64,000 nt of DNA from Bremia lactucae (Eukaryota; Oomycota; Peronosporomycetes; Peronosporales; Peronosporaceae), in assembly GCF_004359215.1 (NCBI RefSeq), contig NC_090610.1:13041021-13105020 (forward strand), read 5' to 3'. This document shows, piece by piece, positions 1,069 through 61,614 of this stretch. The notes below the pieces were generated by a model. That model did not search any database. It was not told the DNA's origin and saw only the letters and a program-made list of their open reading frames with translations. The position numbers and the translations under genes were made by a program. Position 1 is the first letter of the stretch. Every line of letters starts with the position of its first letter.

Positions 1069-3543
1069 TCATAAAAGCTGCTCAAGGTCCACGGGGTTAA
1101 ACGAGCCCTTGGATTCCCGTGCAAACACTACACCCTGTTCTAGGATAATTTGGTGCTTCCCAAATGCATAGACTTGCTGTCCATTGTGAACTCCTTTCGG
1201 TACAAATTTCAAATCGTAACTTATTGCCAAATTTTCGATGACGTCCTTTAAGCTGACGCTATGACACGATGCACTCCGGGGTGGCGTCTTTTTGTCTCGG
1301 CTTGATGATGATATTGATGGCATTTCCACGCTCACATCTCGGGCCAACGCCAATGCATCTTGGTAGCACATGGCGGCCTTTTCACTGAGATTCGGGATCG
1401 GTTGCCTCAATTCAGCTGGCGCGCGAATCGACTCAGTTGCAGCTTTGATAAGCACAAGAGCTCCGTGAAAATGAATACGCAATCTGGCATTTGTTGCGAG
1501 ACAATTACTCTCGAAAAAGAGCTTCCACCCGCAATACCATTTCTCGAGCTCGAGCAGGTCTGGAGAGCCGCTGACCCATGTGTGTAAGGCTTTAAGCCAT
1601 TTCGGAAAGAACTCGCCTTCAAAAAGGGCCACGAGCTGACGATTAGGAAGAAGATCTTTCCAAGCTAACACCCACCTTAAAACGTGCAGCGACTGATTTT
1701 TCGGGTTTATTTGAAACTCGCGGCGCAAACATCTTATTAATTTTTGCACGATATGCCGATGAGTAAATTTGGCGTATTCGCGCTCGCCCCATAGATCCCT
1801 CCATGGAGTCAATACAGCAAGCACTGAAAGATCTGATGGATGCCAATTGTTCAAGGCATTTGCCAACACCAATCGAATATCAGGATAAAGGGACGCCATT
1901 GCAGCGTCGAGAAAAGGTAGCCAAGGTAGCAACCACTCGTGAATAGGAATTGCGTCTGATTGAGGATTCCAGCGCTGACACTCTTTTTTCAAACGAAGAA
2001 GTACTAATTGACTCAGGAATGCATCCTCGAATTCGGTGGAGAGGTGCGGCCTGAATTGCAAAAACATCTTAATGCAACTAGCTGGGTCAGACTTTGCGTG
2101 CCAATTCACGTTTATACACTGCATCATGGCAGGCCATAACGTTTCTTCCAGAATAAAGTTGTATAGTTCACTGCCTTCAGCCATAGTTTTTTCACGAATG
2201 ATGGGAAGCACATTGCCTGCTTTGGTTGCATCTTTTGCACCCCTACTGCTAGGCAGCTCATTTAAAAACTCGTGTATCAATTTTAGCTGAATCACGACTT
2301 TGCCACTCGAAGCCTCATCGAGCAAATCACATTTTTTCAATACATCTTGTAGTATAGGCATGCAGATTGACGGCACGAGTTGCTGCAGCTTGTGAGCATC
2401 AAATTCCAGTGGAAAACTCCGGCGTACACAGCGCAGAAGGGACATGAGTGAACCCACTGATTGACTCTCTGTAGCTTCCTCGCGTAATTGATCTAGTGCT
2501 TTTATTTGCTTTACCATTTCTTGCATGTGCTGCAGGTGCACATCATTCATATCCAATTGCGTCTTCATCATCTTTGCCTCTTTCTTTAAACCAGCAAGTC
2601 TTTCGCGATGAATATCAATCTTTTGGCTTAAGTCACAAATTTTTCCTTCCGCCAGATTGACCACCATTCGTACGTTATAGATCAACTCGTCCCCCAATTT
2701 CGGTTTTAAAACTTTTCCATTCCACGTGTTCACATCAGATGCAGCCGTCACGTTCGTGAGCACACGGACAGAAGGACCTCTCATATCCACGACAACGTTT
2801 GCTTTCTGATGCGTTATCATAGTTTCAACTGCTTGCGCCAAGTCTGCTGCCCGCTTGTGTTTTTTGCTTATCGCTGGAGTTTTCCTCTTCCTCCACAACG
2901 TGTCGTCCTCTACGAAATATTCATCTTGACTGGCGGCATTTTGATCGTTTGCACTTTCACCATTCAGCTCTCGCTGCAATTTTCGATTTTGCCGTAAATT
3001 ACTGGCCTCCACAAAGTCTCCAAAACCCATTCCCATCTGAGCGGGCCGCTGTTTAACTTCAACAACAGCTGACACGCCATCTTCTTTCTTACCAAGACGG
3101 CCTTTGAACCCCATTTTAGCCAACATTTTAGTGCCGAAGCCTGTTGTGTGTTTCTCCCAAACATAAGTGTTGTTTTTGGCATGTCCAGCAGCCCCTGCAT
3201 CTTTCTTGTCAGCTCCAAGACTCACTCCAGACCCCAAACCAGATCGACCTTGAATCAAAGACGCATTGCTGCTGGACCCAAATCCTAGACCGGACACTAA
3301 TTTTTTGGACTTGCTATTAAGCTTTGACGGCTCGCCCACGTCTCGTGTTGAGTTTGCTGTGGCTTCCTCTTGCTGATGTCTCTGGGTTGCTGTAAGCAAC
3401 TGGCTTAAATCGTGAGCACAATCATTTGCTCCGAATGCGTTTACCTTTACGTTTGGACACTGTCTTGAGGTTTCCTGTTGCGATTCTTTTCGAAACATGC
3501 GCGCAAAGTCGGCATTACTGAGGCCGCCGCCGGAAGTAGCCAT
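1069..3543 (-). CDS. TFIP11: Tuftelin-interacting protein 11 / STIP-like G-patch splicing factor
   Basis: The 824-residue protein belongs to the TFIP11 (Ntr1/Spp382) family, which recruits and activates the DEAH helicase DHX15/Prp43 to take apart the intron-lariat spliceosome in the nucleus. A G-patch is visible around residues 130-180, with the glycine-spaced core GFGTKMLAKMGFKGRLG. A long helical GCFC-type region follows (about 370-650). The C-terminus has the family ending GQQVYAFGKHQIILEQGVVF. I chose the ATG at 3543 (MATSGGGLSNADF) because the frame upstream has only a TTG. The single-exon frame is intact and of normal family length. The gene lies 425 bp downstream of SPT6 on the same strand. 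The identification is confident; the partner and role are known for the family and inferred here. Confidence 0.93.
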   Translation of the reverse strand: MATSGGGLSNADFARMFRKESQQETSRQCPNVKVNAFGANDCAHDLSQLLTATQRHQQEEATANSTRDVGEPSKLNSKSKKLVSGLGFGSSSNASLIQGRSGLGSGVSLGADKKDAGAAGHAKNNTYVWEKHTTGFGTKMLAKMGFKGRLGKKEDGVSAVVEVKQRPAQMGMGFGDFVEASNLRQNRKLQRELNGESANDQNAASQDEYFVEDDTLWRKRKTPAISKKHKRAADLAQAVETMITHQKANVVVDMRGPSVRVLTNVTAASDVNTWNGKVLKPKLGDELIYNVRMVVNLAEGKICDLSQKIDIHRERLAGLKKEAKMMKTQLDMNDVHLQHMQEMVKQIKALDQLREEATESQSVGSLMSLLRCVRRSFPLEFDAHKLQQLVPSICMPILQDVLKKCDLLDEASSGKVVIQLKLIHEFLNELPSSRGAKDATKAGNVLPIIREKTMAEGSELYNFILEETLWPAMMQCINVNWHAKSDPASCIKMFLQFRPHLSTEFEDAFLSQLVLLRLKKECQRWNPQSDAIPIHEWLLPWLPFLDAAMASLYPDIRLVLANALNNWHPSDLSVLAVLTPWRDLWGEREYAKFTHRHIVQKLIRCLRREFQINPKNQSLHVLRWVLAWKDLLPNRQLVALFEGEFFPKWLKALHTWVSGSPDLLELEKWYCGWKLFFESNCLATNARLRIHFHGALVLIKAATESIRAPAELRQPIPNLSEKAAMCYQDALALARDVSVEMPSISSSSRDKKTPPRSASCHSVSLKDVIENLAISYDLKFVPKGVHNGQQVYAFGKHQIILEQGVVFARESKGSFNPVDLEQLL

Positions 3544-3968
3544 TCTTAAGCTTGGCAACTTTTTAAGGAATTTATAAAGAATAAGAGGATGAAGTAAAAA
3601 TGAGAAATATTTCCAAAGGGATCATTTTGAGTGCAAAAGGTTGCTTGTAGCTAATGTACTAATCGGTGGTTGAGATGTCATAATTCATAGAAACAACAAA
3701 AATTCTTAGACATGAATTGCGCGACTCTCTTAATAGACGAAATGAGAATTATAAGCATACATCGCTCGCTATCTAAGATCGTGTCTGCATGACATCTCGA
3801 AACCTCACCGGCAAAATGCGATACACATGTTTGTTTATGTTTCTGCATGTGTTGGCCTCTTTTGATCTATCGCAAATTTCATTCTGACGATTCCAGCACT
3901 TCGAAATCGACGAGCGTCGTTGCTGCTCGTCTCGAGACAGGATGTGCATACGCATTTTTAAAGAGCAC
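3544..3968. other. Intergenic: TFIP11-like upstream region and SPT6 3' side
   Basis: These 425 bp separate two minus-strand genes. They should hold the TFIP11-like promoter and the SPT6 3' UTR. A short minus-strand frame (to 3773) runs through here out of frame with SPT6 and has no recognisable domain. I see no repeat or RNA gene. Confidence 0.5.
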
Positions 3969-6900
3969 TTACCATTGACGAGCAATAACATCACCACCAC
4001 GACGATCACTCCAACGCGAAGACTGACGAGGGCGGCCACCGCTTCCAAAATAAGGCGCACTCGAGCGCTGAGCGAAAGGTCCGCTGCTTCGATCATTACG
4101 GTGGTAGGAATCAGGACGAGAAGCATTCGAAGTAGGACCGACAAGCGCTTTCAGCTTAAAAAACTGCAACGCCTGCGACAGCGTCGGCAGAATTGAGGAT
4201 TCAATTCGGCCAAAAAAACGGTAGCCTCCCGGCTTGACCTCCATGTGGCAACTGCGGGGCGTCTCACGGGCAATATATGTAATTGAAAAGCATCCCGGAA
4301 ACTTGCTGTATACGTGAAGAGCGTAAGGAATTCGAGACGGGTGCTCCTTTTTCTGCTTGATTAAGTCCTCCTCGACGCTCTCCGTTAAAGCATTCTTATA
4401 GTGCTTGTAATGCACTACATCGTCTACTAAACTGTTCATGGGATCTACAAAGCGAGCAATCAGCTCATCAATGTTCTCGTACTTTTCTTCCTTGATAATC
4501 AGCATTTGACCAATGCGGGCTTCAGATGGTTTATCCTTCTCTTGAATATCGAAATGCCGGTAGACGCCATCCAGCATCTTCCACGTAAGTGTCAAGTGAT
4601 CGGAACCCTGCGTGCCAGGACGAATGACGACCTCGCCTATAGGCTGTTCTCGCAAATATTGCATAGCTGTCTGACAAGTGATATTGCGGAACAAAGGGTG
4701 AGCGATCTGACGCTTTTTACGTCTTGAAGAATGAGCACGTGAAGCATGTGAGGCTTGCGTAAAAGTTGTCTTGTCTTCGTCAATAGGAGGCTCATTTATG
4801 AGGCGGTCAATGCGCTCCATACTGTCCGATTCGACTAACTTTTCGTTTGTATATCGAGGAAAACGCTCGGGATAGAAGCACATGGACATGGAAATTATCG
4901 AACGACGGTCGCAACCAAGCTGCAGCTCGTAGCGGCCTTCTCGATCCACTTTAAATTCCACAATTTTGGCGTTTACTGTAATGCCTTTTGGAAAACTTTG
5001 CGGCCGCACGTCTTTTAAATAGTCGGGTAGATACTCACGGTGCAAGCTGGACCGCATGCCACTTTGTAAACGAACGCGAACATAATCATCACCCGACATG
5101 TGCAACAGCGTTGCCGGCACAATCATACCCACACGCAACGTTTCCCGTGTTTCACCATTCAGCAAAAAAAACAATTCTTGGTCTTTCGGTACTTGATATT
5201 TTGCACGCTTGTCGAAATATGGATACCGCAGCTCTCTCTTGATGTATTCAAGCGTTAGGAGCTTTGGCCCCTTCTTTTGAAGCTCCAGTCGGCCGGCGTA
5301 GGCAGATAAATCCAGCTCCGACAGCACATCCTGAATTTCTGCATCGCCAAGCCGAGTATTTTGGGGGGCATTGCGGCTGCGAATTGCAGAAGCTGAATGG
5401 TACATTGTGTCTTCGACGGCGTAAGAGTAGTGGTTTGGGTCGTACATATCGATAGTTGAATTGTTGTTAGCGTCACCACAAATTTTGACAGCCATGTAGT
5501 AGCTTTCTGGGTGGATTCGAGTGTCATCAAGCGGATTCAAGGGTGCTTCTCGCAGCGCATCACGCTCGCGAATACGGATAAATCCAGCACAGTTGCGATA
5601 CACAATTTTCCCAACAAAACCCTTCGATAACAATTCCTGACGTCGCTCCACGTAATTCTTTGCACGAACCTTATTAAGAATTGACGCAGCTTTCACTGGA
5701 CCCAAACCACAGATAAATTGCAACTGGTACGAGGTATGTTTGTGGTTGGCTAAAAGGTTTATGTCAACGCCATACTTATTAACCATTTGCACAAACACAC
5801 GATCGTATTCTCTTAAAAGAACGTCTTTCACGAGTGAGTGCTGCATTATGTGGACATTCAAAAATAGCAATTCACGGCCACGATTTGGATCATCCAAAGC
5901 TATATTTTCCCACATCGCACAGAGCTCAGATGCAGGATTTTGAAGGTACCGTCCGAGACTGACTGCAGCACGTACGAACTCAGATTCCTCGGGAAATTCT
6001 TGGTCGGCGCGTTTTGAGCGACTAAACATGTTGGCAACATCGTCATTCAAGAAGACAATGTCCAGAAAGTCGTGCCCATCTCCATTGCCAAAGCGAGAGG
6101 CGTCATCACGCCCTAATAAGCGACGCACTTCATCAACTACTCCACCCATATCCATGCACTTCATACCTGCCGAGACATTAATTACAACAACGTGCGTTTG
6201 TGAATGTTCCGTCAGGAACTTCACTAAAGCAGCAGTAAGTTTGTCAACACTAGTAACATCACGCTTGCAGTAACTTTCCGTCTTATCCACCATTTCTCCA
6301 TTAACATCAAGAGCTACAATGTGCGCGATCGAGTCCATCGTGCTTTCGATCCAGATCGAAACAATAAAGGGATCTACCCCATCAGCTGGCTCGTACGGTC
6401 GGACAGAAAGCTTTTTTCTAAGCGCATTTCCGCACATTTTTACAACCATATCGCGAGACGCCACAGTCAGGTCACGCTTTAGTTCATTTTCAAAGGATAA
6501 GACCAAGAAATTATTGATTGCCTCCTGAAGAATAAGGTGGCGCTGACTTTGCCATTCCTCGTCCGATGCGTTACTGTTCGACAAATAGATTGGCTCTAAC
6601 GGATCCATTAGATCTTGAGCCTTCTCATTAATAATGGTGATCGTCAAAAGCCCTTCTTTCTCAGCACGAGCAATTCTAAGCCACAAATCACCCGCCTCAA
6701 ACACTTCGAGAACAGGCATCTTTTCAATGTACTGCAGGCCGTGGCAGTAATGAAATTCATCAATTTCCTCGCGGCCTTTTGCAGTGGCCTCTGTATTCAT
6801 AACAGCGTGCTGACGATAAAGATCACGTATACATTTCCGGACATTAGGCTCAGCTGCAACTTTACTGGCGGCAATGTGGCGAGCGCCCTTCATTACATCA

Positions 6901-8807
6901 TCCACAGTCGGGAATTCCTTAGTGGTGTACTTTAGGGCCAAAACGCCAGGGCTCTCTTCCGGAGTCGGAACGTCACGAAGAGAGTCTTCATGATCAACAC
7001 CAGCCACAATGCCACCGAGCACGGATGAATTCATCGTAAATGCCAAAGATACAAGGCGCAAACCGGCTTTGGTACAAATTTGATAAAACGTCCGACGAAC
7101 CGGGCGGCGGTACTTGTGATCTGAACTCTCCTTGTCGTCACCATTCGATTCCTGTGCATCCAACGCAAAAAATTCAGATAAATCTTTGTAAATCTTTTCA
7201 TCGGGTGTGCCAAAGAGCTGCTCATAGCATTTGCGAATGAACGCCGATTCCTTGGCATTCGAAGAGTCAATCACCCGCTGAATACCACTCTGGAAAGATC
7301 GCCGCTTGCGCTCCAGCTTGTCCCACTTCACATCAAGATCAAGAATCTCGTATAAGTTCTCCGTGTGTAAACCCACAACTTTCCAATATTCCTTACAGTA
7401 TCGCTGGACAAACGCGGGCTCAAGCTTTTCATCGTGGTAAAATCGCAAGACAGTATCAATGGCCGACACAATCTCCCCGCGCGAAGCGGCAGAGCTTCGC
7501 TGATTCCTTCTCTCAAGGTTTTTAATTATAAAATCACTGATCCACTCAGATTCTTCAGCACGGTCTTCGGCATCCGGAAAATCGCGACTTTTATAAAGAT
7601 ATTGGCTTCGCTCAGGCAAATCATTTTCGCGCACAGCGATAACATCGGCGGTCATCATATGCTCTTTCAGCACACTAGGCTCAAACTTCTCTAGCAGGGT
7701 AGCCTTTTTTGGTTTCGCAGGTGTTTTGCCGAGAATTTTTTCGCTTGAAGCATCTAAGAAACCATCCATGTCTCCAAAAAGCTCTTCCGCTTCACCCATC
7801 TGGTACACAGAAGGTCCTTGCATGGATACAGGAATTGGCTCCTGTTTCCTGCGGCGACGTGGTCCTTCACGTCCTTCTTCGTCATCATCCACAATAAACT
7901 CATCAATGTCGTCACTTTCGTACTCGTCATTGCCCAAGTAATTGTTCGCGCGTTGCGGAGCTAAATCTTCCTCCTCACTCGAGTCTCCAAACATCCGGTA
8001 GCTCAACTCGCGTGACATTAGTCCAGATTCATCATCATCAGTCTTTACTTTGCGAGCCGAGCGTTCCATCACTTCGTCTTCGCTGTCACTACGGGCAGGC
8101 CCAGTGTCCATGCCCATATTTTCACGCACGAGCATAAGATCCTCGTCATCAATCTCTTCCACTTTTTGTTTCAGACGCTTAAGCTTTTTTTCTTTTTTGC
8201 GGCGACGGCGCCGGTACCGAGCTGAGGATATAATAAAGCAAGACGGATAAGTAACTCCTCACGATATCGATATATCACGTAAGTTAAGCCTGTCTATAGT
8301 GACGGTGCTTACCAGTTCCTTCTTCGTCAGAGCCTGTGTCATCCACAACAAAACCGTCGTTCTCGTACTCGTTGCGGTCTTCTCCTTCTTCGTCATCCTC
8401 GTCGTCGTCATCGTCTGACTCTTCCTTTTCAGCTCTTCCGTCGTCACTTTCCGACGCCATGTCGTCGATAAAGGTCGATTTCGACTTCTGTAAAAGAAAA
8501 ATGGTGATGAATTATCTAATTTCGAGAAAACTCAAGCCAATAGTCGAACCTTGTCAGCATCATCGTTGCTAGTGGATTGCTTGGCGTGTTTGCTCTTGCT
8601 TTTTTTCTTACTTTTGTGGCTACCATCACGGCTTATCTTGCGCTTCTTTTTTGTATTCTTTTCTCTCTTAATGGCGTCTGAGTCTGAGTCAGACACTGTG
8701 GGTGAACCTGCACCAAACATTTCATCTATCGAGATAAGCAATTCGAGTGTTAGCGCTTGAGAGCACAGCTGGATTATACACAATGACAATGGCTTACCGT
8801 CTGACAT
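3969..8807 (-). CDS. SPT6: Transcription elongation factor SPT6 (four exons)
   Basis: SPT6 is a histone chaperone that travels with RNA polymerase II in the nucleus. I place four exons by frame: 8807-8798, 8725-8550, 8487-8313 and 8221-3969. The introns are 72, 62 and 91 bp, giving 1537 residues. The start is MSDDEMFGAGSPTV, followed by a long acidic and lysine-rich N-terminus (FIDDMASESDDG, then RRRRRKKEKKLKRL). Next come a YqgF-like region near residue 770 (VVALDVNGEM), helix-hairpin-helix near 980 (GLGPVKAASILNKV), S1 near 1205 (LRVGMIVPATLLHM) and tandem SH2 domains at about 1330-1510. A Gly/Arg/Ser-rich tail ends RRGGDVIARQW. The stop overlaps a good donor (ATG/GTAAGTG), so an additional 3' exon cannot be excluded. 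Intron 2 has a weaker donor, GTTCGA. Confidence 0.93.
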
Positions 8808-11654: not shown

Positions 11655-12063
11655 AAGGTCTCTAAAATTGTTATCATTTAATTATTTCTACTTAAGCAGG
11701 GTCTCTTAATTATTATCATTCAATTATTTTTAATAAATTTTGAAACAACTAAACAATAATTCTGTTAATTGGTTAATTAAGTTTGAATGATTCCCGCCAA
11801 TAGCTGCTTGCACGCAGAAATTAGCGGTAGACAAAGGTCGCACTTATAGTTTAATATTAATATTTTAAAGTCAGTAGATAAGAAGATCGTTACTTAGGAA
11901 CTGAATATATAAGATACAGTTTTACTTTTTCCCTATACTAAGGTCTTTAGTATTGACCGTTTATAGCTAAGACTTATTTGCTACTTAAAAACTTCCTCTG
12001 CAGGTCGTGTACGTGAAGTATTTGGAGGCACCTCATTTTCACTGTTATCAGTGCAGGTTGGCT

Positions 12064-14290
12064 AGTATTGAAGAAGTACTAGCGATAGGTGCCTTGTCAC
12101 AATTGTAGCACTTCGTGGCCCGTTCAACGGTCACGCGCGTACCATCCAACATGAATATGTTGGATTAAGAAGGAGGAAACTTTCAAGCCCCTCATGAAGG
12201 CTTCCACGCAACGCGTGAAAAGTTCACTCACTTGAGTGACGTCGAACAGAAAGCGGTCGAAAGTATGACTTCCGCCGTTGGCTGACCAGCCGTTGGCGCA
12301 ATGCTGTACGCTTAATACTAAAACGAGCAACATGCGTCTATCGCCGACTTTATACACGTGAGCCCGACATAGCCCGAGAAAGGTTGCTTTATCAGCAAGG
12401 CTCTCAACACGCAATTTTTTTGAGAGAAAGGGGTGCGTAACAGTTAAAACTGTTGAGACAGCAGCATTTACATGCCGCTAGCGGACCAACGCTACGGAGA
12501 GCTGAAAGATCGAAATTTCTAAGTTCAAGACAGTCAAAGGTGACTAGTCGCTTAGATGAATCGTCGAATTAGACGCCACTGAAGCTCGCCGCACCGATAA
12601 CGATGGGATGAAAGTGAAGTTTGAATGTCCAACTTGACCAGACGTGCTAAATCTTAAGCCTTAGGGCTCGAGCTTCACGACCAATTTGTGTTTGGGTCGT
12701 ATGACGTCTTTAAGACCCGGCTTAGATAAACCTTTGAGCCGCTACGTACCGAAACCAGGGCTTGAACAGAGGTCCTGTATTTGAAACAGGGCAAGCGTGG
12801 GCTTCAAGCTATTCCCCAGCGCACACGATACCTCGTGAATTGTATCGTGAGTCAGTTGATGAAAAAACACAGATTGTTGTATCCATCGAGGCTCTTGCGG
12901 ATGGTCCCGTCAAGACCCACCTATTCCTGCTTTAACTAGAGATGCTAGTTTAAGCGATCTCTGTGACACAAGCTTTAGTCTGGTCTCATAATTTTACTCT
13001 TTAATAATAATTGAATCAGAAGCATCTATATGTAAAATGTTGAAAAGGCTGTCGTCTTCTACCTATGCTTACGCTAGCCATACCAAATAGTTATCCTAGA
13101 AGATCTAGGGCCTGGGAACAGACGCATCTGTAACAGTTAACAAACGTGAAGTTGGTATCCAATACATACACAGTACGATAATGATTTCATCGCACTGGAT
13201 TTAAACGACATATTGGATGTCATCCTTGAATTATTATTGTTCAAGGAGTATGAGTCATGCATAACTGGCAGCATCAAGCCGTGATGACGCCTGTCTCGCG
13301 TTCATCAGATGACTATCCGACGAACGTCTTGGAGCGTCCACAAGCGTATGGATGTCTTACGATTGAGTGCAATGACCTCACTTGTGGCACTATTGTTAGC
13401 ATGACTGCACAAGACCTCAGTGTGGCGACCAGCAACCCATCACACTGTGGAGTTAAATTCGACAGCTGTGCTCAAGCACAGGCATCGTCGAAGTTTGACG
13501 ACTCGAATAAGCTGAGTGGAACGAAACAAGAATGCTTGCATAGAAAGCAACATCGAAAATAATGTGAAACGCCTGTCTATAAAGAGACAGTGCGAAAGTC
13601 CTAAATCGGCTGGAGAGTTCGTCTTAGAGGATCTCATTGTGGTTGCGCAACCACAGCTAGAAGCAGTTGAGGAGATTACCTCTTCCCAAAAATAGGGGAA
13701 GGAGTCCCATAAACTTGAGGGAATAAGTCCCGAGATAGCTTTGGATAAGAAGTTGAGACATTGAATGACTTAGTAAACAACGGATCATAGTGTAGGCGCT
13801 TATATACTTGATCTTATAGCGCCTCCGAAGTTAATTTCGGAGATAGTTGATTGCCAACGCTCGAGCCGATACGGTATATGCGTGATCTGCGTAGTGGCAA
13901 AGTCAATCAGATCTGGGTACTTGTCACAGATGACAAGTACGTGGCTGATATTCGGTCGGCAATAGTATTTCCTGAGAATGGACGGGTTTTCAGCAGCTCA
14001 TCGATGGACGAAAGTGTCCACAATTTAAAGGCTAGGATAGAACGTTTAACGTTTTAATCCTGGGAGTCGTTAAAGACAAATCCCTAATTTTAAGGATTTG
14101 ATCAAATTCAAGGATGTGCTCTTTGATTCTTTACCGTAAGAGTTGCCTTTGGATAAAGGCGCTCGACGCGAAATCGACCTGATACCAGGTTCGAATACTG
14201 TGTCATGAAGAAGTAGCCTCGTGGGCAAGTATATGCAATCGACAAGTAATTTGCCCATCGTTTAGCTGCGGGTCATATGCGGGAGTATAT
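12064..14290 (+). pseudogene. Family A gag-pol remains, copy 1
   Basis: The leader palindrome CTAGTA...TACTAG sits at 12064, as in the other family A copies. Gag homology starts near 12160, where the DNA matches 43575 onward, but the frame is riddled with stops. Protease-region sequence (about 13250-13560) matches 57214-57528 in reverse. A plus frame at 13851-14057 reads MRDLRSGKVNQIWVLVTDD and VADIRSAIVFPENGRVFSS, close to 50945-51193. RT-start sequence (ATACCAGGTTCGAATACTG at 14180) precedes the truncation. This is the most decayed family A copy in the window. Confidence 0.7.
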
Positions 14291-31694: not shown

Positions 31695-32176
31695 TGTAAC
31701 AGGCTAAAGTTGCCTTATGTTACACAATCCCCGTTAAGCACACTTTGTGTACTTAATGGGATGGTCAATTACTTAAGTGAAATAATTAGGACCACCACTT
31801 GGGTGTGGTTCACATTGTGACCCCCCGTGTATATGATGCAACTGAGCGCGTTCACTTTAACGGGGATGACGGCTAGCGTCATCCAAGATACGAGGAGGTC
31901 GCTTAGGCGCCCACCAACTACCTACGTGTGAAGTTAATTGATCACACTTGGCTGAGGTTCACATAGCGAATGTGATGCACCCAGGTGCATTCACATTGAA
32001 GAATATGACGCCTAGCGGAGCTGAGGTATTTAGAACAAATACGCTTGCTGTAGGCGGGCGCTACTATAGCAGCCACGCTCTACCTACACACACAGCTTCA
32101 GGCACATTGAGGAAGTGGTTTGACCGTCTTCTCTTACGTGCAGTGCTTAACGGGCGAGTAACGATAACCCGTTACA
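31695..32176 (+). repeat. LTR-like block bounded by TGTAAC...GTTACA
   Basis: It starts TGTAACAGGCTAAAG and ends GATAACCCGTTACA. The first half is homologous to 580-770 in reverse complement, and part of the second half (32045-32150) to 215-310 in direct orientation, so it is a mosaic. Small hairpins abound, for example ATGCACC/GGTGCAT near 31976 and GATGACG/CGTCATC near 31865. The flanking five bases (GGTGG and TGTTA) do not form a target-site duplication. It could be a rearranged solo LTR. Confidence 0.55.
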
Positions 32177-43027: not shown

Positions 43028-45253
43028 TGTCCGTTACATAAATTTATTTCCTATAAGAGGAATACTAAATATTATCGCCTATGAGGAAAACTATATAAAG
43101 AAATACAATTTTATTATCTTTATTAATTTGACATAAATAGTTCCAGCATTATCAACTTCGGTAATATTGACGCAATAAGACATTAGTTCTATTGATTGGT
43201 TGATTTAAGTTTAAATTAATACCCTGCCAATCGTTATATGACACGATTGTGTGGTGCGAAAGTAGGCGCATACATTGTTTATTTATTTAATTATAAAGTC
43301 AGTAGTTGATAGAAGATCGTTACGTAGGAGCTTACAATATTAATACAATTTTACTTTTTCTCTATTCTATAAGCCTTAGAACTAACTTTTGGTAGCTAAG
43401 ACTACTTAATTACCTGTAATCTTCCACTGCACGTCGTGTACGTGAAGTTCACTGTAATTAGTGTAGGTTGTCTTGTACTGTTAACAGTACTAGCAAAGGG
43501 TGTCGCGTTAGACCTAGTAGCACTTCGTAGCCCTTCATCGGCCCGAGCACGTCCCATCAAACATGGACATGTTGGATGAAGAAGGAGGGAGCTTTTCAGC
43601 CCCTCAAGAAGGCTATCATGCAACGCGTGAAAGGTTCGCTCATTTGAGTGACCTTGAATGGAGAGCGAGCGAACGGATAAGTTCGGTCGTAGGCGGGCCA
43701 ACCGTTAGCGCAACCTTGTTCGCTCTACAAAGAGACGAGCAACATGGGGCTATAGCCGAGTTCATAAAACACGAACTCGACGGGGCCCAAGAAAAAGTAG
43801 CGTTGCTATATCAGCAAGGCTCTCAACACATAGAGATGTTGAGAGAACAGGGTGCAACAATTAGAACTATTGAGATAGCAGCATTTACATGCTGCTAGTG
43901 GGCCGACACTTCCACATCGACCCTACAGCTTAAAGATCGAAAACTCTGAGTTTAAGGCAGTCAAAGGCGACTCCCGTTTAAAATGCTTCGTCGAATTAGA
44001 CAACGCCATAGAAGCTCGCCGCATCAATCATGATGCGACGAAAGTGTAATTTGGCATGTTTAACTTAGCCGGACGTGCGAAATCTTGGGTCTTGGGGCTC
44101 AAGCTTCACGACCCATTAGTGTTTTGGTCGGATTAGGTCTTTAAGACCCGGCTCAGACAAACATTTGAGCCACCACGGTCCAAATTCAGGGCTCGAGCTG
44201 AGCGCCTGGATTTAAAGCAGGGCAAGCGTGACCATCACTCTTATGCCCAACATACACGATACCCGGTCAGTTGTATCGTTAGTCATCCAATTAATGAAAT
44301 TGTTAAAGGTCTTGCAGACGGGCCTGCTAAGACCCACCTGTTTCCCCCGGGCTAGAAACGACCAGGCGATCTCTATAGCGAAACAGGAGGATTTTAGACT
44401 GAAACAGGCTTTGGTCCACTCAAGAAAGGGGGGCCAGAGCCCATAGATCTCTCATGTCTAGAGAGTGGGAAACCTCGCTCTTCAAGTTATAAACGGTTAC
44501 GAAAATGTAATCGGTGTCAAAAATGGGCCACTACGCCTATGAATGTAGTACCCCCCCACGGACAGAGCCTAAAAACACTAAGCGAGATCGATTTCCTGCG
44601 GGAGCAGCGGAGGACGCGGATCCGACGCTGTTGCGAAATCGCAACGGCGAGGCGGATTGTCAAAAAACGGTCGGGGTCAGTAGGTAGGGAGCGCCTTACT
44701 GATCCAGCAACGTCAAAAGAATTTGCAGGCCTTTTGACGAAAGATGCTTCTCACCCACAAACATTGTGTCTAACTGTCCCAGGAGATGAGGTAAACTTCA
44801 TCACCTTAAAAATAAAAGTGTCAAATAAATTGGCATTTATTTTCCTAGTCGATTGTGGGGCGTCGTGAATTTTATTCGACGCCAATCAATAGAAGATTGC
44901 AGGCTCAAGTTCGTTGAGCGCGATATCCCTCTAACGAGGATGACAGTGCGCCTAGCAACAGGCGCATCTGTAACAGTAAAGAAACGTGTAGTTGGTATCC
45001 AATAAACGTTAAAGAGTCAACAGTACGATGATGATTTCACCGTAATTGATTTGGATGAGCTCTTCGAGCACATGGGTTCCGTCTAATAGAGCGAACCTTA
45101 TGGATTTGAGCCTCGTTAAGGAAGGAAAAAAGGCTCTTCAAGCTGTGGAACGAATTTGGTGTCATCCTTGGATTATAATTGCTCAAAAAGTACACGCCAT
45201 GTATAAATTGGCAGCATCAAGCCGTGACGATGCCTGTCTCTCGCTCAAAAGAG
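43028..45253 (+). pseudogene. Family A Gypsy copy 2: LTR, gag, zinc knuckle/protease part
   Basis: The LTR starts TGTCCGTTACATAAAT and extends to roughly 43430. The leader palindrome region lies at about 43468. Gag opens with MDMLDEEGGSFSAPQEGYHA (43563-43898) and continues in other frames to 44460. A frame at 44539-44868 covers the protease N-terminus, ending in the active-site string FLVDCGAS, where a protease would have DSGAS or DTGAS. Sequence matching the protease C-terminus runs to 45253. A family B LTR begins at the next base, so this copy was interrupted by family B. Confidence 0.78.
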
Positions 45254-49757: not shown

Positions 49758-49886
49758 CATTTCGGTAGAGAAAAGACCAACGGCTCTGTAAGCCAGATTA
49801 CTTGGTGACCTGGCTTACAGAGCCGTTGGTCTTTTCTCTACCGAAATGCCAGTTGTAAAGCTTGGTGACCCAAGCTTTACAACTGG
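49758..49886. repeat. Two adjacent perfect inverted repeats (39-bp and 17-bp arms)
   Basis: Arms of the first are 49758-49796 and 49810-49848 with a 13-nt loop. Arms of the second are 49849-49865 and 49870-49886 with a 4-nt loop. The sequence TTGGTGACC occurs both in the first loop and between the second arms. The homologous copy at 27600-27690 has a single uninterrupted version of this connector. Confidence 0.96.
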
Positions 49887-51615: not shown

Positions 51616-51989
51616 GTAAGTAGGGACTTTAGCTACCAAAGGTAATTCAAAGGATTAGAATTAGGGAAAAGTAAAACTGCATTAATATATTAAGTTTCCA
51701 AAGTAACAATCTTCTATCTACTACTAAACTTATTATATTAATAACTATTTAAGTATGGCGCCTCCTTGCGCACATCACAATCGTGTCTTCTAACGATTTG
51801 CGGGGTTGAGTTAGACCTTTATCAACCAAATAATAGAGCTAATGTCTTATTGCATTAATATTATCCAATTTGGAATTATTGGATCAAAACTAAAACCAAT
51901 AATAGTTTTGTACTTCTTTTTATATTCCCTCTCATAAGAAATATCATCCATTACTCCTCTCATGGAAATAATACTTGTGTAACGGGACA
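51616..51989 (-). repeat. Family A LTR fragment in minus orientation
   Basis: On the minus strand it starts TGTCCCGTTACACAAGT at 51989 and follows the family A LTR at 43028 through CAGTTTTACTTTTCCC and TTTGGTAGCTAAAG. It joins directly to plus-strand RT sequence, so it is not a normal 3' LTR of that copy. Confidence 0.7.
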
Positions 51990-53330
51990 CCCCGATACGT
52001 CACCCCCCCTAAACCAACACTTACTATAGTGACTGGTGCAGGGTGACAGGAAATACTATTATATCGTGCCCTGAAATTGTGCGTTGTTGGTTTTAATCAA
52101 TGAAACGATTTTATCTTTATCAACTGATTTTGATCAAAATCAACATGGCGACTGCCAAGTCTGTGCGCGTAGGCCGTGCGGCTGCAAAGCTGGCAGCTGC
52201 ACGGATTCGTGCAGCTGTTGGTAATGCAAATGTTTCAGTAGACGCAAATGCGTCTACTGCGGGAAATACGTCACCTCTACTCCCAATTTTGGTGATAAAA
52301 CATGTCATTTGTTGATGACATGGCAGGTGACGGTGACAAGTCACCTGCTTCACGAATTGTAGGTACTGGACCAAGCCACCGGCATCGCCCGCCGGACCAC
52401 CTGGGGTCGATTCCGTTAAACCTTTAACGTGACAACCAGAGAGGTGATGACAAGGTTGTTCGACTCGTCGGACTTCTCTGGTAGGGAGTCATCATCCGAT
52501 GACTCTATGGGCGATGACCACTCTGGTGACGTTAGTATGCGCCATTAGAAACTAAGTGGTCGCGAAGGGAAGAGTGCTGCTGGTGGTGCTAGCATCAACA
52601 GGAAAGGAGTGATTCTAGGGATCGCTCAAAGGGCCAAGTTAACGTTAACGTTAACATGAGCCGCAGGCGAGGAACCTAAATACGTTGCGGTTTGCTCTGA
52701 AAAGAGGCCTTGGTTGCCTCTAAGGATAACCTAATGCGTTGGTCTGGTATGACCCACGATCGATCTCATATTTCGCTATTTGATTCCTCCAGGCTTTCCA
52801 TGCCTGGTAAAGATGAAACGGAATTCTTCATCGATGCCTTTTTCTGGCATCGGTAGTACTCTTCAAACGGGCAAAGGATGCAGATCCTTTGTTCCAAGCT
52901 TGAACAGCCTTTGTACAGAATGTATAAAACATAGGCCGCGAGGTCTGGCTTGACAAGCCAAATGCTTTCCGTGCACGGTTCGAGAAATCGACCGTTTTCG
53001 GTGCACGCTAGAAGTTGTACTGTTTGTCTAGAAACTGGGATTCCTTGCTTCCCGTAGGGGGGGGGGCGGGACTCATACCCATGCTTTTTGAAGGGTGATA
53101 GTCAAGCCCCTAACGAAGTATATTCCCTCAAAGATCCTTATTGGAGGACTCTCATCTCTTACGAGATGCGTCAAGGGATTGCGATCCTCGAATCCTTTTA
53201 CGAGCGCGGGAAGCGCTCGCCCTCCGATGGACCTTCTGCCGAGGAGGATGGGTCTTGCCGTGCTGCGAGACGAGACCCGAAACGTCCAACAACAGTTGGG
53301 AAAATAATAGGTAAAAACCGAAATTATTAT
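51990..53330 (+). pseudogene. Family E gag-like region, dense in hairpins
   Basis: A first frame at 52145-52315 is Ala/Arg/Lys-rich (MATAKSVRVGRAAAKLAAAR), followed by Ser/Asp-rich and basic pieces in other frames (for example FSGRESSSDDSMGDDHSG near 52460) and a tail to about 53310. A gag polyprotein with several frameshifts is my best reading, but no capsid or zinc-knuckle motif is certain. At least six perfect hairpins with arms of 8-11 bp lie between 52194 and 52891, with shorter ones at 52414, 52832 and 53201. Confidence 0.45.
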
Positions 53331-53416
53331 CTGTTTTATTTTTATCAATGTAAATATTAATATCTTGCATCATAATAACAAATGTAAAAATATATATATA
53401 ATAATTTAAAAAAATA

Positions 53417-53488
53417 GACGAGAGTAGGATTTGAACCTACATCTTCAGATTAAGAAACAACTATCATGCGAGTGTGGATACCCTCGCC
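53417..53488 (-). tRNA. tRNA-like sequence, probably a pseudo-tRNA
   Basis: The 72-nt minus-strand stretch from GGCGAGG to TCTCGTC has a seven-pair acceptor stem (two G-U) and a perfect T arm, GTAGG-TTCAAAT-CCTAC, matching the RNA polymerase III B box. The D arm and anticodon stem fold poorly, and a canonical A box is missing. The sequence TTCTTAATCTGA resembles the anticodon region of tRNA-Lys(CTT), but this is weak. It may be a decayed tRNA, an organellar insert or a SINE piece. Confidence 0.35.
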
Positions 53489-53703
53489 AACGAACGAGAC
53501 AACTCGTTCGAACCCCTTTACCTCACGGTGGTTCGAGAGGCGCTTAACAAGAAAACGCTTCTCACCACTCCGTCTATGGATGTGGTGAGGTAGGAAACAT
53601 CAGGTTCGCCTCGTTTGACGAACCCGAATAACATCGTGATTTGGATCACACCCTTTATTATTTGAGGGAGGACATTGATCACGAGCGATCCCATCGCCGC
53701 GAC

Positions 53704-56700
53704 TCAGCGGTGGCGGTTGATAAGTTTTCTCGTGACCAGTTGAAAACTTGTGCGCAGATTGCGACTGATCAACTGGCAAACAAAAGGACACATCAGTCCC
53801 TTCGAAATGAGCTGTTGATAGCTCGTCATAATTTTTTTTTCAGGAGGAAAGAGTGAATCTTCTGGTTCAAGAGAATCAAACTTTGTCTCGAGACAATAAG
53901 GCTTTGGCTCTGAACGATCAGGCTTTGGCGGATGCCATAGACCGCTCCGATGTAATCCGGAATCGGAAAAAGCTTTGTGCCGATGGTACGGGCAAAGATG
54001 TCCAACATAATACGTAGGATGCGTACGCATCCTACGAGGCAGCTCGATCGTGTACGCATTGCCTTGGCGCTGTAGTACACGAAACCGGCCGATATGCCAG
54101 GGTAGTAATTTATGATTGCCTACATTCGTCACTACGTGTTTTGGTAGGCTTACTGTAGACAGATGGACAAAGTCATTAACGTTAAATGAAAGTATGTTTG
54201 CTCTTCCATTTTTGTCAGAGTTCCGTTTCTGTCGGTTCACCGCATCAGTGGTAAAATTGTGTACGAAATAGACCACTGCTTCTCTAACCACCAGGAAGTC
54301 TCCTGCTGACTCGGATGTACTTTTGTTCTCAGTGCGACCGGCTCGCACTGCGGAGATATCAATCTCTTCATTATTAAAATTATTATCGTTCTCATTTATA
54401 ATACTGTTTTTGATGCTAAGTCTTTCAGCATCGTTGTATAAGTCAGTAATAGCAATATTACTCTAAAAAGTTGCGTTTGTCCACTTCAATGTTAGATAAA
54501 CCAACATTGGTATCCTTCGCATTGACCTTAGTGCTATGCGTGATGAGAAAGAGCTCGAAAATTCTTCGCTCGAGCGAGTCCCCCACCTTGAATAAGAGTC
54601 ACTCGCAAACAAGTTGGTATACGTGGGTGGCGTAAGCCTTTCACGAAAAATGGTGAATGCTTTGTAGAAGCATGCACTGATCTGTTGATGGCAAATTCTA
54701 CCATCGGCAAAACCTCGCTTCAACTCGTAAAAGAAGGGACATATTAGCGAAGTATCTCTTCGTGGACACGGTTTTCACGCTTTGTCTGCCCATCTGTATC
54801 AGGATGATCAGAAGTTGAAATTTTCAACCGTGTTCCAAGTTATTTGACCACAATTTGCCAAAATGTTGCCGTGAATCTAGGGTCTCGATCTAGGGCCAGT
54901 TCGAGGGTAATCTATGCTGTCAAAATATCGTGTAAACAGGACACGAGCACAGCTTTTGGCTGTTATCGACTCCGGTACTGCAGCAAGATGTAATATTTTG
55001 CTGATACAATCAACAGAAACAAGATTACCATTTTTTATGTTCGTCGGGAAATCCGAAGACGAAGTCCATGAATACAGACTGCCAACACTCTGCCGGAACA
55101 GGCAGAGGTTGTAATGGAGCACGTGATGAAGCCGAGGGTGAAACCGCTAATAAACTTCGCAAGAACGTATGTACTTGCGGACGAACTCATACAGGTGTGG
55201 CCAGTAGAAGTCGCGCTTTATCGTGAGAAAGGCCTTATCACGTCCTCGATGACCACTTATTGGAGCATCGTGGCACTCATACATGATGCGTAAATATAAA
55301 CCGTTATGGGAAGGGATGACGACACAACGTGTGTCTCCAACAATGGCTGTGTAATACAGTGAAGTGTTTCGTGTTGTGTATCGATCTGTTGAGGATCGAT
55401 ATAGTTTCGACAATCCTTTTAAGAAGTGTTGGGGGGTGATTCCTCAGGTAATTCATTTTGCTCTTAAGAGCCTTATCTTCTTGATAGGCTCTTCTAACGT
55501 CGTAGAGTAATGTTGACGACGAAACACCTCTTGTTGCAACAGTGGCCTTATGCTCACCGTTGATAGTCCCAGTCGGTTCGAAATCGGGCCGGCGCAAAAG
55601 TGCATCAACGACGACGTTAAGTTGTCCTGGTTTATACTCCACGGAGCAGTTACACTCCGCGAGCAAAGAAAATCATCTCGCCATTCTTTGAAAGAAGAGT
55701 GGACTGCTTACGGCCGTGCGTAAAGAAGCACGGTTTGTATATACAATGAATGGTCTATCTCCGAGGAGATAGACCATAAACTTAGCCAGTGCGTATTTCA
55801 TGGCAAGGAGTTCCTCGTCATGCACTGGATAGTTGCGTTCAGCAAATTGAAGCTGGCGCGATTGATAACAGACGACGAACTCTGCGCCGTCTGTGTCATA
55901 TTGCATTAACGCGCAGCCGCTTGCAAAATTGCTGGCGTCACAGACCACATGAAAATGTTGGTCTTGGTCAGCAATCTCCAGGATCGGCGATTGCATCTGG
56001 CCTTGCTTGATACTCTGAAAAGAAACGCTGGTAATCAGCGTTCCATGAACACTTACATTTTTCTTAAAAAGAAGAAAGATGTACTGTCATTTCGGCATAA
56101 TTGCGGAAGTCCTTGTGTAAGTACGCCGTTGAGCCAAGGACTTTCGAAGTCCATTTTCATCGACTGGCACAGGCCAATCGGTAATCGCCTTGATAATTTC
56201 CAGGGGCTCAGGGCGTACACCGTGTTAATCCACGATGCACCCAGGAAGTGGTATATCGCTTCAGCGAATACACACTTCTAGAGATTTGCATACAACTATG
56301 CTTACACATAAGTGTAAGAACCTTTTGAACGTGGGTACGATGTACTTCAACATCCGAGTTTCCGTTCATGGCTCTGCTATGAACGGAGACGTCATCAAAA
56401 TAGTTCGATGCAAAATCCCGCACCCATCTCAACAGATTGGTTACACATCTGTAAAATGTCGCAGGGGCATTACTAAGCTCCTGTGGCATGACCAGTCAAT
56501 CCCATAGCATACCGCTTGAGGGATTTACTGCTGTGAGCGGGATATCCTGTTCACGCATGAGGATCTGATAGAATCCATCCATCAGATTCATTGACGAAAA
56601 GATAATGCTCTTTGACATACCATCAATGATGACGTCTTTTCGTGGTATCGGCGTTTGAGCCGGTATGTTGCTGCGCTCAATTTATTGAATGAATGCACAA

Positions 56701-59221
56701 TCCGCCATCCTCCTGGTGCTTTACGCACACAGAAGCTCGGAGAGCTATGTAAGGAAGTTGATTCCCTCACATGGCCCGCTGCTAAGCGATCGGCAAAGAA
56801 TGTGTCGATCGTTATTACTTCTTCGCGAGGCAATGACAATTGCTTCATAACAGTGCTTTGAACCTGGAATCAGGTCGATTTCGTGTTGAGTACCTTTATC
56901 CTAAGGCAACTCGCACGGTACTGATTCAGGAAAGACATCCTTAAATTCTATTAAATTCTTATATGGAGGGTTTGTCTTCAAAGACTCCCAAGATTGGGAC
57001 GAAAAACGTTCAATCCGAATCTTCTCATGGAGGACGCTTTCGTCCATCGATAAGCTTCTGAGAATCGTTGGTTCTCTGATAATACCATTGCCGACCGAAT
57101 ATCGGCCACATAGCTGTCATCTATGACAAGCACGCAGATCTGCTTGACTTTGCCACTACGCATATCACGCAAGAACCGTTTCGGTTCTTGTCGAACTTCG
57201 ACGCTGCCTGTGCTTATGCACAGCCGTCGGAATCTAACTCCACAATGTGTTGAATACTCACACTGAGGTCTTGTGCAGTCATGCTAACGACCGAACCACA
57301 TGTGAAGCCATCACACTCACTCGTAGGACATCCACACGCTTGTAGCCGCTCAAAGGCGTTCATCAGTTGGCCATCTGATGAACAAGAGACAGGCATCGTC
57401 ACGGCTTGATGCTGCCAATTTTTACATGGCTCGTAATTTCTGAGCCATGGTAATTCAAGGATGACATCAAATTTGTCATCCAAATCTAGTACGATGAAAT
57501 TATCATCGCACTGTTTTCCCTTTGACATGTGTTGAATACCAACTACACGTTTCTTAACCGTTACATATGCCTATTGCTAGGCGCACTGTCATCCTCGTCA
57601 GGAGGTATCGCGCTCAATAAATTTGGGCCTGCGATCTTCTAGCGATTCGCGTCTAATAAATTCACGACGCCCCACAATCGACTAGGGACATAAGTGGCAA
57701 CTTGTTTGACACTGTAATTTTAAGAGTGATGAGGCTAACCTCATCCCCTGGGGTAGTTACACACAATGTTTGTGTGTGAGGAGCAACTTTCGTAAAAAGA
57801 CCTTCAATTTTTTTGACCTTGCTGGATCCGAAGGGCGCTCGGCATTTACTGACCCCGTAAGTCTTTTTACGATCCTCCTCGCCGTTGCGATTTCGCAACA
57901 GCATCGGACCCGCATCCTTTACTATTCCCAGCGATAGATCGGTCTTTTCGCTCAGTGTTTTTAAGCACTGGCCGTGGAGCACTACACTCATAGGCGTAGT
58001 TTAGCTCATTTTTGAGAGCGATTACATTTCTGTAATCGTTTCTAACTTGAAGAACGGGTTTCTCGCTCTACATACGAGAGATTCATGGGTTCAGGACCTC
58101 CGGTTTCTTGTCGTCTCGGTGGACGATAAGCACCAGAGTGGACAAAAGCCTGTCTAAGACTTAAGTTCTCCTGTTCCGATTTAGAGATCGCTTGGTCTAG
58201 CGACTCTAATTGTAGCGGGAATAGGTGGGTCTTGACAGGTCCGTCTGCAAGACCTTTAATAAACACAGTAACCTGTGTTTATTCATCTGTTGGATGGCGA
58301 CCGATACAACTGACTAGGTATCGTGTATGTTGGGCATAAGAGTGAATGTCACGCTTGCCCTGCTTTAAATCCAGGAGCTCGGCTCGAGCCCTGAATTCGG
58401 AACGTGGCGGCTCAAATGTTTGTCTGAGCCGGGTCTTAAAGACCAAATCCGACCCAAAGACTAATGGGTCGTGAAGCTTGAGCTCTAAGGCCCAACATTT
58501 GGCACGTCTAGCTACGTTGGACATGCCGAATTTCACTTTCGTCGCATCATGATTGTTGCAGCGAGCTTCTGACGAACCATCTCAAAAGGGAGTCGCCCTC
58601 GACGGTCTTAAGCTCAGAGATAAGCTTTCGGGTCGACGTGGAAGCGTCGGACCATAAGCAGCATGTACATGCTGCTGTCTCAACAGTTCCATCTGTTGAA
58701 CATCCTGTTCTCTCAGCACCTCTGTGTGTCGAGAGCCTTGCTGGTGAAGCAAGGCTACTTTCTCTTGGGCCCCGTCGAGCTCGTTTTGTATGAACTTGGC
58801 TATTGCCGCATGTTTCTCGTCTGTTTCAAGAGCGAACAAGGTTGCGCTAACGGCTGGCCCGCCTACGACGGAATTCATCCGTTCGATCGCTCTCCATTCA
58901 AGGTTACTCAAATGAGTGAAATTTTCGCGCGTTGATTGATAGCTTACTTGAGGGGCTGAGAAGCTCCCTCTTTCTTCATCAAACATGTCCGTGTTGGATG
59001 GATCGTGCGTGAGCCGTTAAACGGACAACAAAGTGCTACCAGGTGTAACGTGGCACCCTTGCTAGTACTGTTAACAGTACTAGACAACCTACACTGATGA
59101 CAGTGAAGGTGGGGTGGCTCGGTTTACTCACGCACACGACGTGCAAAGGAAGATTACAGGTAGCTACGTAGTCGTAGCACCAAAGTTTTGTTCTAAGGCT
59201 GTCATAAACGAGAAAAAGTAA
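53704..59221 (-). pseudogene. Family A Gypsy copy 3 (minus), best preserved gag-pol
   Basis: Reading leftward: leader with a 22-bp palindrome (59062-59083); gag at 58986-58042 in three frames (start MFDEERGSFSAPQVSYQ, and FGSDLVFKTRLRQTFEPP); protease region at 57991-57214 (SLVDCGAS, LPWLRNYEPCKNWQ); linker at 57172-56978; RT at 56848-56208, which keeps the catalytic YFDDVSVHSRA. RNase H at 55996-55673 has DASNFASGCAL, but YTNRASL where YTDHxSL is usual. Integrase zinc-binding sequence at 55413-55147 ends HDAPISGHRGRDKAFLTIKR plus YIRSCEVY. The integrase C-terminus at 54348-53704 has LPRRMRTHPTYYVGHL. Frames are longer than in other copies but still broken. No 3' LTR follows, and the 5' LTR is truncated at 59221. 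Confidence 0.82.
59062..59083. repeat. 22-bp perfect palindrome in the family A leader
   Basis: CTAGTACTGTTAACAGTACT starts the palindrome at 59062, between LTR and gag. Copy 2 (about 43467) differs by one base in the left arm, and copy 1 (12064) keeps the outer CTAGTA/TACTAG. Position and conservation suggest it belonged to the ancestral element. Confidence 0.9.
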
Positions 59222-60252: not shown

Positions 60253-61614
60253 ATCGGGACATTATTGTTTAATCTCTTTCCAATCAACATATCTGCAACA
60301 AATGTCTCGACAAGCGTCAATTGTGATCGACAATTTGCCAGAAGGCGAGGTGCTCGCCTACCCGTTAGTGCTGCTCGAGGTCGTATCCTTAATTTAAATT
60401 TTTCTAGAACTTAGTTTAACGCGACCGATTATGTGATGCTTTCGTGCGCGAAAAATCGTGTACCATGACGTAACATTCGCTCATTTACATCTATATATTG
60501 GGACGAAATATTTGAACGTACAATGCAATTGCGAAAAGCAGGATCCAATAACGATGTGCGGAGTTGCACCTTTGTATTTCGCTACCACGGCTTCGATATT
60601 TTGAAACAAATATTCTGCTGTGTCTGCCATGAGGACAACAACTTGAAGAGCTGTTGCCGCAAGACTCTTTAACATTCATCAATGAAGCACATGAAGTAGT
60701 TGCCGTGGTAAGCGTTTAGGGAACATGCAAGGTCGAAGAACCTAATTCGTTTTGGAGTACACACGATCCGATTGCGCGTAAAAACGCTTGTATCTTGCAT
60801 AAACGTAGTCTCGACGAACTCCGTCACTTTGTTTGCGCTGCTCATGTTTGGATCATCGCACCCCCAATATGTTGCCACACGTTACATTGTAATGTGTGAT
60901 ATGACATTATTTTCTCATTTCTGATTACCGATTGAATAACGATCGTAGCTTTCCGCAATTGTTTCCAATAGCTGCTCCGTATATTTAACTAGGTCAGAGC
61001 CCTACTCAATCGTGTATCCAGACGTCATACATCAGTTTGTGCTCCAGCGACAAACTTCAAACAGCTTCTCGAATGGCTTTGAGTAATTTCCTGCCTAGTG
61101 TCTGCAATGGCTGCTTGATGTTGGCAGACTTTTATTTGAACTCCCCGAAGAGTTTTGCAAGCATAGTTGCCGATGTCCTTCACTGCGCTAATGGAAATGA
61201 GGTGTAGTAGTGCATACTTTAATTTTGGCAGAGGGTATGTACAGCAGGGAGCAGTGATAGCATCACTGCCGAACGATAGAATGTTAAGTAAAGAAAGCTG
61301 CAAGGTTTGGCAGCAAGAATGGCATATTGCCTGTGCCCACGTTTTATGACGTTGTTTCAATAACTCCATTAATGTTTACAAATGTTACATTAAAATGTAA
61401 AACTGTAGCAACGCCAATCCCTTATTCAAGAAGTAAATCAAACCAGTATCAGTCTTCTAAGAGTAATAGTTATCGCAAGTGACTTGCTCAAGTAAAGCGT
61501 GTGATGTATTAATGTGCTTGAAATGGTTGGTGAACGTTTTTTCAATGATTGTGCAAATAATTGAGTTTCTTAAAGTCCAGTGTTCCAGTCAGTTTTTTGT
61601 CACAAATTATTCCG
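60253..61614. repeat. Tandem duplication, unit 1 (1.36 kb)
   Basis: The unit begins ATCGGGACATTATTGTT and ends ACAAATTATTCCG, and is repeated nearly exactly at 61616-62976 after a single N. It holds a short plus frame (MSRQASIVIDNLPEGEVLAY at about 60303) that could be a first coding exon, and minus frames of 64, 69 and 114 codons (60675-60481, 60878-60669, 61369-61025). None has a domain I can name. Confidence 0.85.

Follow-up and report, generated by a model that had tools for sequence, protein, structure and literature searches.

Why should a decayed retrotransposon be crowded with short, perfect hairpins? The question is raised by a 64-kb stretch of the Bremia lactucae genome (the window; 64,000 nucleotides of contig NC_090610.1), which contains a degraded Ty3/Gypsy relic of the repeat family that we call family A. 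We propose that these hairpins probably derive from a genome-scale ordered structure of the active element, which was maintained by selection, was inherited by its copies and has been eroding since insertion. An earlier note on this DNA, made by eye, had listed 14 perfect hairpins between 53491 and 59083 and judged them far above chance. A finder of exact inverted repeats (arms of at least 8, loops of up to 10) reproduced all 14 with the same starts, arms and loops, and added two that were absent from the list, at 54330 and 57759. The interval thus holds 16 hairpins, whereas 300 dinucleotide shuffles gave 0.84 on average and never more than 4 (Poisson P of about 1e-15). The excess is therefore real, although the interval was drawn too narrowly, as nine further hairpins lie at 51885–52872. 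The 16 hairpins are given here as arm/loop, with their aligned counterparts in two related copies, L043 and L044.

53491..53510, hairpin 8/4
54013..54036, hairpin 12/0; the aligned place in L044 (4536) is 12/2, and the window retains 11 of those 12 pairs
54330..54350, hairpin 8/5, newly found; roughly collinear with an 8/5 hairpin of L044 (4224), by position between aligned blocks and not by alignment
55379..55401, hairpin 8/7; the aligned place in L043 and L044 is 9/5, and the window retains 8 of those 9 pairs
55750..55777, hairpin 13/2; the aligned place in L044 is 12/0, and the window retains 11 of those 12 pairs; 20 other copies keep 6–12 of the 13 pairs, none perfectly
56361..56387, hairpin 9/9
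57170..57190, hairpin 9/3
57358..57383, hairpin 9/8
57425..57449, hairpin 8/9
57459..57481, hairpin 8/7
57759..57777, hairpin 8/3, newly found
58019..58038, hairpin 8/4
58258..58283, hairpin 11/4
58657..58676, hairpin 10/0
58734..58756, hairpin 9/5
59062..59083, hairpin 11/0

The element is placed on the minus strand, its sense strand, because an open frame at 53704–54348 carries a Tf2-1-type SH3 domain. Alignments to relatives suggest that it spans about 51.6–59.2 kb, with the following parts.

51622..59200, minus strand, degraded family A Ty3/Gypsy relic, ends judged by alignment to relatives
51622..52085, minus strand, probable 3′ long terminal repeat (LTR), aligning to the direct-repeat end of the related copy L025
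52090..53457, minus strand, region downstream of the Tf2-1 SH3 domain, with 8 hairpins (5.85 per kb) starting at 52125, 52194, 52236, 52301, 52323, 52486, 52638 and 52872
53704..54348, minus strand, open frame with a Tf2-1-like SH3 domain (PF24626, E = 2.9e-09), the C-terminal part of a Gypsy polyprotein

Over its full extent, the relic holds 25 perfect hairpins in 7.58 kb (3.30 per kb) and has a mean folding z score of −2.71 per 150 nt on the plus strand; its 3′ region is also strongly folded (z = −2.7). The hairpins had been assigned to gag, protease, reverse transcriptase (RT) and integrase sequence. In the window copy this is borne out in part, by the SH3 domain on the minus strand, whereas the other domains are placed from relatives. 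No 5′ LTR was found in the window copy; paired direct repeats are present in the relatives L025 (91%) and L028 (82%). The LTRs tested were weakly folded (z of −0.5 to −1.5), those of L028 nonetheless holding 3 hairpins in 734 bases. Among the relatives, L029 has an Integrase_H2C2 domain and L031 an SH3_Tf2-1 domain, together with a Chromo match of 20.2 bits, under the curated cut-off of 25.1. Matches to RT_RNaseH occur at at least 150 places in the genome, those of L043 and L044 among them. Among the best 120 of 1757 pol matches, the best-scoring relative is from Peronospora effusa (79% identity), another reaches 83%, and those from Phytophthora and Globisporangium rank lower. Judged by domains and alignments, the element and its relatives are Ty3/Gypsy and Tf2-like. 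No relatives turned up when viral contigs were scanned, once with a 190-residue piece and once with alignment A1, and the window had no Rfam match at gathering scores.

All nucleotide comparisons were made within one genome, in an assembly of 115.9 Mb and 220 contigs with many gaps (115 Mb with 24 Mb of gaps as published; PMC6570648). Twenty related copies, at 9.9 kb each, contained 5–39 hairpins against 0.4–3.0 after shuffling. From 60 pseudo-random places on nine contigs, we read the first seven and the seventeenth, 5 kb each. One of the eight was all gap, and the other seven contained 21, 9, 30, 14, 0, 6 and 6 hairpins against 0.3–0.9 after shuffling. The whole window holds 62 hairpins against 5–14 in ten shuffles, clustered in a few repeat-rich stretches. 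The earlier note had called for a host-gene control, and the coding stretches measured with the finder showed no excess (0.14–0.15 hairpins per kb). The reverse transcriptase regions of six Copia loci likewise lacked an excess, with a single hairpin over 20.6 kb in total. Stretches of three further repeat families in the window, of which two are related and bear a clear Gypsy RNase H and the third has a sub-threshold match, contain 0.4–0.6 perfect hairpins per kb, yet they fold better than shuffles, with mean z scores of −1.1 to −1.9. Among the sequences tested, the hairpin excess is confined to Gypsy elements, and above all to the family of the window element.

The richest copies are those that have diverged least. 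Forty-three of the 150 RT_RNaseH matches listed have an identical score, a hint that they are recent copies; L043 is the locus around one of these and L044 surrounds another of the 150. We defined a substitution as private when it is present in one copy only, and by this measure L043 and L044 are the least diverged of the 24 loci that we compared. Over its whole readable length, L043 holds 23 hairpins in 4.1 kb (5.6 per kb) against 0.69 after shuffling, and L044 holds 14 in 2.34 kb (6.0 per kb) against 0.26. Over family-aligned sequence, the densest loci are L043, L044, L029 and L031, with 4.5–5.3 hairpins per kb. Across the 24 loci, density drops with increasing private divergence (rho = −0.53, p = 0.007; loci with fewer than 1200 aligned bases or fewer than 500 testable sites excluded). 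The near-copy L016 of L014 was excluded from this correlation, from the leave-out covariation and from the window-pair conservation counts.

Predicted folding follows the same pattern. In 150-nt windows of the sense strand, the mean z score was −3.7 for L043 and −4.0 for L044, compared with −3.1 and −3.25 for the RNA phages MS2 and Qbeta and −0.3 for one Copia locus; the folding excess of L043 and L044 at this scale was 38% and 42%. At 350 nt, where each sequence was folded in one given orientation (antisense in the case of L043 and of the window copy), the excess was 31.8% for L043, 38.0% for L044 and 24.5% for the window copy. The same test gave 27.8% for MS2, 29.1% for Qbeta, 0.5% for host genes and 1.0% for Copia. 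Synonymous shuffling of five open stretches of L043 and L044 reduced their 2–6 hairpins to means of 0.12–0.30. Relative to such shuffles, these stretches had folding z scores of −6.0 to −10.4, compared with −9.4 and −9.8 for the phage replicase genes and −0.3 and −0.9 for two host genes. The structure is therefore encoded in codon choice and is not forced by protein or composition. Predicted folding energy is thus well below that of shuffled controls through the coding sequence and independent of codon and amino-acid content, which is the pattern known as genome-scale ordered RNA structure (GORS).

To say that no named system does this, as the earlier note did, is too strong, because the GORS of RNA viruses is a named parallel (PMC7642675). 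As described there for positive-strand RNA viruses, it shares with the element consecutive local stem-loops through the coding sequence and an energy excess over shuffles, not only at regulatory sites. The excess reported is 15% for SARS-CoV-2 and at most 23.4% among vertebrate RNA viruses, against 32–38% here, although that study has its own shuffle and only our phage values are strictly comparable. MS2 and Qbeta resemble L043 and L044 in folding z and excess, but their perfect hairpins are far rarer (3 in 3.6 kb and 6 in 4.2 kb) and they have relatively more sense G–U pairs. The element differs from GORS viruses in being a retrotransposon and in that many of its stems are short, perfect and poor in G–U pairs; its hairpin positions are largely common to relatives, whereas PMC7642675 describes poor positional conservation in viruses. 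The genomic RNA of yeast Ty3, also a Ty3/Gypsy element, has a well-folded core of about 19% of Ty3 as probed by SHAPE (selective 2′-hydroxyl acylation analysed by primer extension; PMC11381356); in L043, 81% of 26 windows have z < −2, by prediction only. Maize LTR elements carry microRNA-like hairpins that are linked to small RNAs and concentrated in Copia LTRs, as PMC10760457 reports. By contrast, internal Gypsy sequence carries most hairpins here, and the RT regions of the six Copia loci lack an excess of short perfect ones. In the open-licence literature, we found no published report of such a structure in a retrotransposon.

Hairpin positions are also shared among copies. Seventeen of the 37 hairpins in L043 and L044 can be aligned in full to the window copy (at 14 places in it), which is about 25% diverged; there they retain from 4 of 8 to 11 of 12 pairs, with four two-sided compensated pairs in total. 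In copies other than those that define them, hairpin pairs are paired in 67.5% of cells, against 24–28% at slid positions. Under neutral descent, a nine-pair hairpin with 10–12% change per site would survive along one lineage with a probability of 0.15–0.10, and two diverged hairpin-rich sublineages are therefore hard to explain without upkeep.

The explanations offered at the outset were selected RNA structure, a mutational process that perfects hairpins, or both; our data support an inherited, maintained structure and do not support perfecting in genomic copies. Our first working idea was quasi-palindrome correction by genomic template switching, in which a DNA polymerase copies one arm onto the other and old copies gain perfect hairpins. 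Such a process would likewise yield perfect short inverted repeats and has been described in yeast, bacteria and apes; moreover, old dead copies are hairpin-rich and relatives often have an imperfect version of a given hairpin. However, its defining perfecting bias is absent from private mutations. Where a potential hairpin has a mismatch, a private change completed the pair in 131 of 391 cases (141.7 expected), or in 105 of 334 under stricter coverage (121.4 expected), and multi-base changes resembling a copy of the other arm accounted for none of 389 private clusters (2.0 expected). Counting arms of at least 7, private substitutions caused 450 hairpin losses, as the mutation spectrum predicts for these sites (450.9), and 96 gains (114.3 expected), a roughly fivefold predominance of losses. 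The higher density of less diverged copies and the lack of excess in the tested Copia loci and host genes also argue against template switching, which is contradicted for dead copies; we dropped the idea and regard it as very improbable. Density, the private loss and gain counts and the absent perfecting bias together indicate that a copy inherits its hairpins and loses them once inserted, and that hairpins do not originate in dead copies. (Aligned pairs of at least 98% identity were excluded from the sampled-places, stricter-coverage and shared-mismatch counts.)

A copying bias could instead act during replication, with RT folding back on complementary DNA (cDNA) in each cycle and perfecting imperfect inverted repeats with no benefit needed. 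Pairs are indeed completed by a larger fraction of shared, older substitutions (88.3 of 189, weighted) than of private ones (105 of 334; p = 0.0007 on rounded counts), and 8 of 579 shared clusters look templated (4.15 expected). Relative to shuffles, G–U pairs are scarcer than in the phages on both strands (L043 and L044, 0.66 and 0.59 sense, 0.66 and 0.71 antisense; phages, 0.81–0.82 sense, 0.72–0.74 antisense). We nevertheless think this account unlikely. The excess of shared pair-completing changes over the mutation spectrum is small (74.5 expected) and majority-rule polarisation is unsafe for shared alleles, for which reason the gain/loss ratios of shared changes (0.38–0.82, arms of at least 7) carry little weight. 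Mixed clusters show no templating (5 of 1680, 9.2 expected), Copia elements also use RT and show nothing, and hairpin loops outpace background divergence (0.275 and 0.292 against 0.22), which copying alone does not predict. Selection on minus-strand cDNA or antisense RNA, and not on sense RNA, would fit the surplus of sense A–C over G–U mismatches both at mismatches found in at least three copies (127 against 93, p = 0.026) and in near-perfect helices (53 against 33, p = 0.04), the reverse of sense-RNA tolerance. These effects are small and the copies related, however; mismatches are balanced when found in one copy (202 G–U, 191 A–C) or two (91 and 95), and predicted sense and antisense energies are alike, so we give this account little credence. 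Given the shortage of G–U pairs, selection may act on cDNA or on both strands, or a copying bias may keep pairs pure. A by-product of composition, codons or protein, or an assembly artefact, is scarcely credible: assembling old repeats is difficult and this assembly has many gaps, but dinucleotide and synonymous-codon shuffles abolish the signal and the hairpins recur at homologous places in separate loci.

We favour an inherited and maintained structure because hairpins are denser in the least diverged copies, are largely shared in position, are independent of protein and codon usage and decay after insertion. In such a model, the nucleic acid of an active Ty3/Gypsy lineage would be held folded into dozens of short local stem-loops while transposing, with the folding encoded by synonymous codon choice in the coding frames and also in the 3′ region. 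Once inserted, a copy would be neutral and would lose hairpins at the ordinary mutation rate, and the hairpins of the window would be the worn remains of this structure. Its maintenance by selection, and not by a copying bias during replication, is our inference.

Several observations weigh against this model. Close relatives in the set depress the private divergence measured for L043, L044 and L029. L020 fits poorly, since its divergence is average and yet it has 0.28 perfect hairpins per kb, although it still folds with a z score of −1.63. Sense and antisense strands fold equally well, and the sense-strand tolerance of G–U pairs that is seen in MS2 and Qbeta is absent here (this yardstick is our own and is not taken from PMC7642675). 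Stem divergence is lower than background (0.172 and 0.143), which is largely what the choice of stems intact in the focal copy would produce, and between the close relatives L043 and L029 stems change no more slowly than background (0.100 against 0.086). Compensatory substitutions, which the earlier note had proposed to look for, are present but weak. With the defining copies omitted, pairing beyond column make-up was 0.0029 per cell (95% interval 0.0001–0.0058). Summed over 12 related focal loci as differences from other copies, fixed two-sided changes left 22 pairs paired and 6 unpaired in hairpins (3046 pairs), against 10 and 22 in controls (3774 pairs); the 22 are few and not independent, and 13 of them fall in the clade of L043, L044 and L029. 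An initial case for strong compensation from paired double changes was dropped, because choosing hairpins that are intact in the focal copy biases the count; the two counts given above leave weak support.

Such a structure might keep the RNA compact and shield it from RNA interference by hiding it from small RNAs, a tentative idea that we raise because the genome encodes Argonaute, tandem-RNase III (Dicer-like) and RNA-dependent RNA polymerase genes and because the perfect arms of L043 and L044 are short (8–12 bp). Dicer typically acts on longer duplexes than these. In Phytophthora infestans, both sense and antisense small RNAs map along Gypsy elements (PMC3522703). Four equal-score matches to the Argonaute Piwi domain are clustered, in two orientations, on contig C118 (698027–727928). 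A bolder proposal, which we consider rather doubtful, is that the whole genome of this clade is selected as a chain of short perfect Watson–Crick hairpins, folded more than MS2 or Qbeta. Pairing would then be selected as strand-symmetric DNA or cDNA palindromes, or against small-RNA access on both strands, and not as ordinary sense-RNA structure, amounting to a new counter-defence or replication strategy.

The rest of the window includes two fragments related to family A and recognised host genes (GCFC/STIP-like, SPT6 and Nop53). A host gene of the window has 65% identity to its best Phytophthora matches and 54–60% to the downy mildew proteins listed.

1069..8162, minus strand, control host genes, STIP/GCFC-like and SPT6, 1 hairpin in 7.1 kb, folding z of −0.08
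11846..14284, plus strand, fragment related to family A in the opposite orientation, 5 hairpins
43162..45250, plus strand, fragment related to family A, mostly in the opposite orientation, 4 hairpins

Other inverted or duplicated sequences were also seen. Long perfect hairpins at 29860–29922 (30/3), 48742–48787 (21/4) and 49849–49886 (17/4), in a repeat family otherwise poor in short hairpins, may be true fold-back events. Positions 1–1068 (1.07 kb, folding z of −3.76) lack a long open frame and hold seven perfect hairpins, and 569–770 is related, in inverted orientation, to 31695–31892. An inverted duplication of about 2.4 kb (17901–20305 and 21305–23707, 97.6% identity) includes one frame with a sub-threshold RNase H match. 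A tandem duplication (60253–61614 and 61616–62976, 98.8% identity) has a single N between its copies and is possibly an assembly join. Within the old element at locus L017, 7687–7859 and 8543–8715 form an inverted repeat of 173 bp (99.4%).

In surveys of genomic hairpins, such relics can be wrongly taken for mutation hotspots or for genes of small RNAs. If selection does keep the RNA or cDNA of these elements folded along its length, they would offer a direct test of what genome-scale RNA structure is for, and B. lactucae would be a useful organism for that test, having RNA interference genes and, in its abundant dead copies, a neutral control. Because Gypsy elements make up more than half of its assembled sequence (58.6%, as given in PMC6570648), the role of the structure may also bear on how Gypsy elements have spread.

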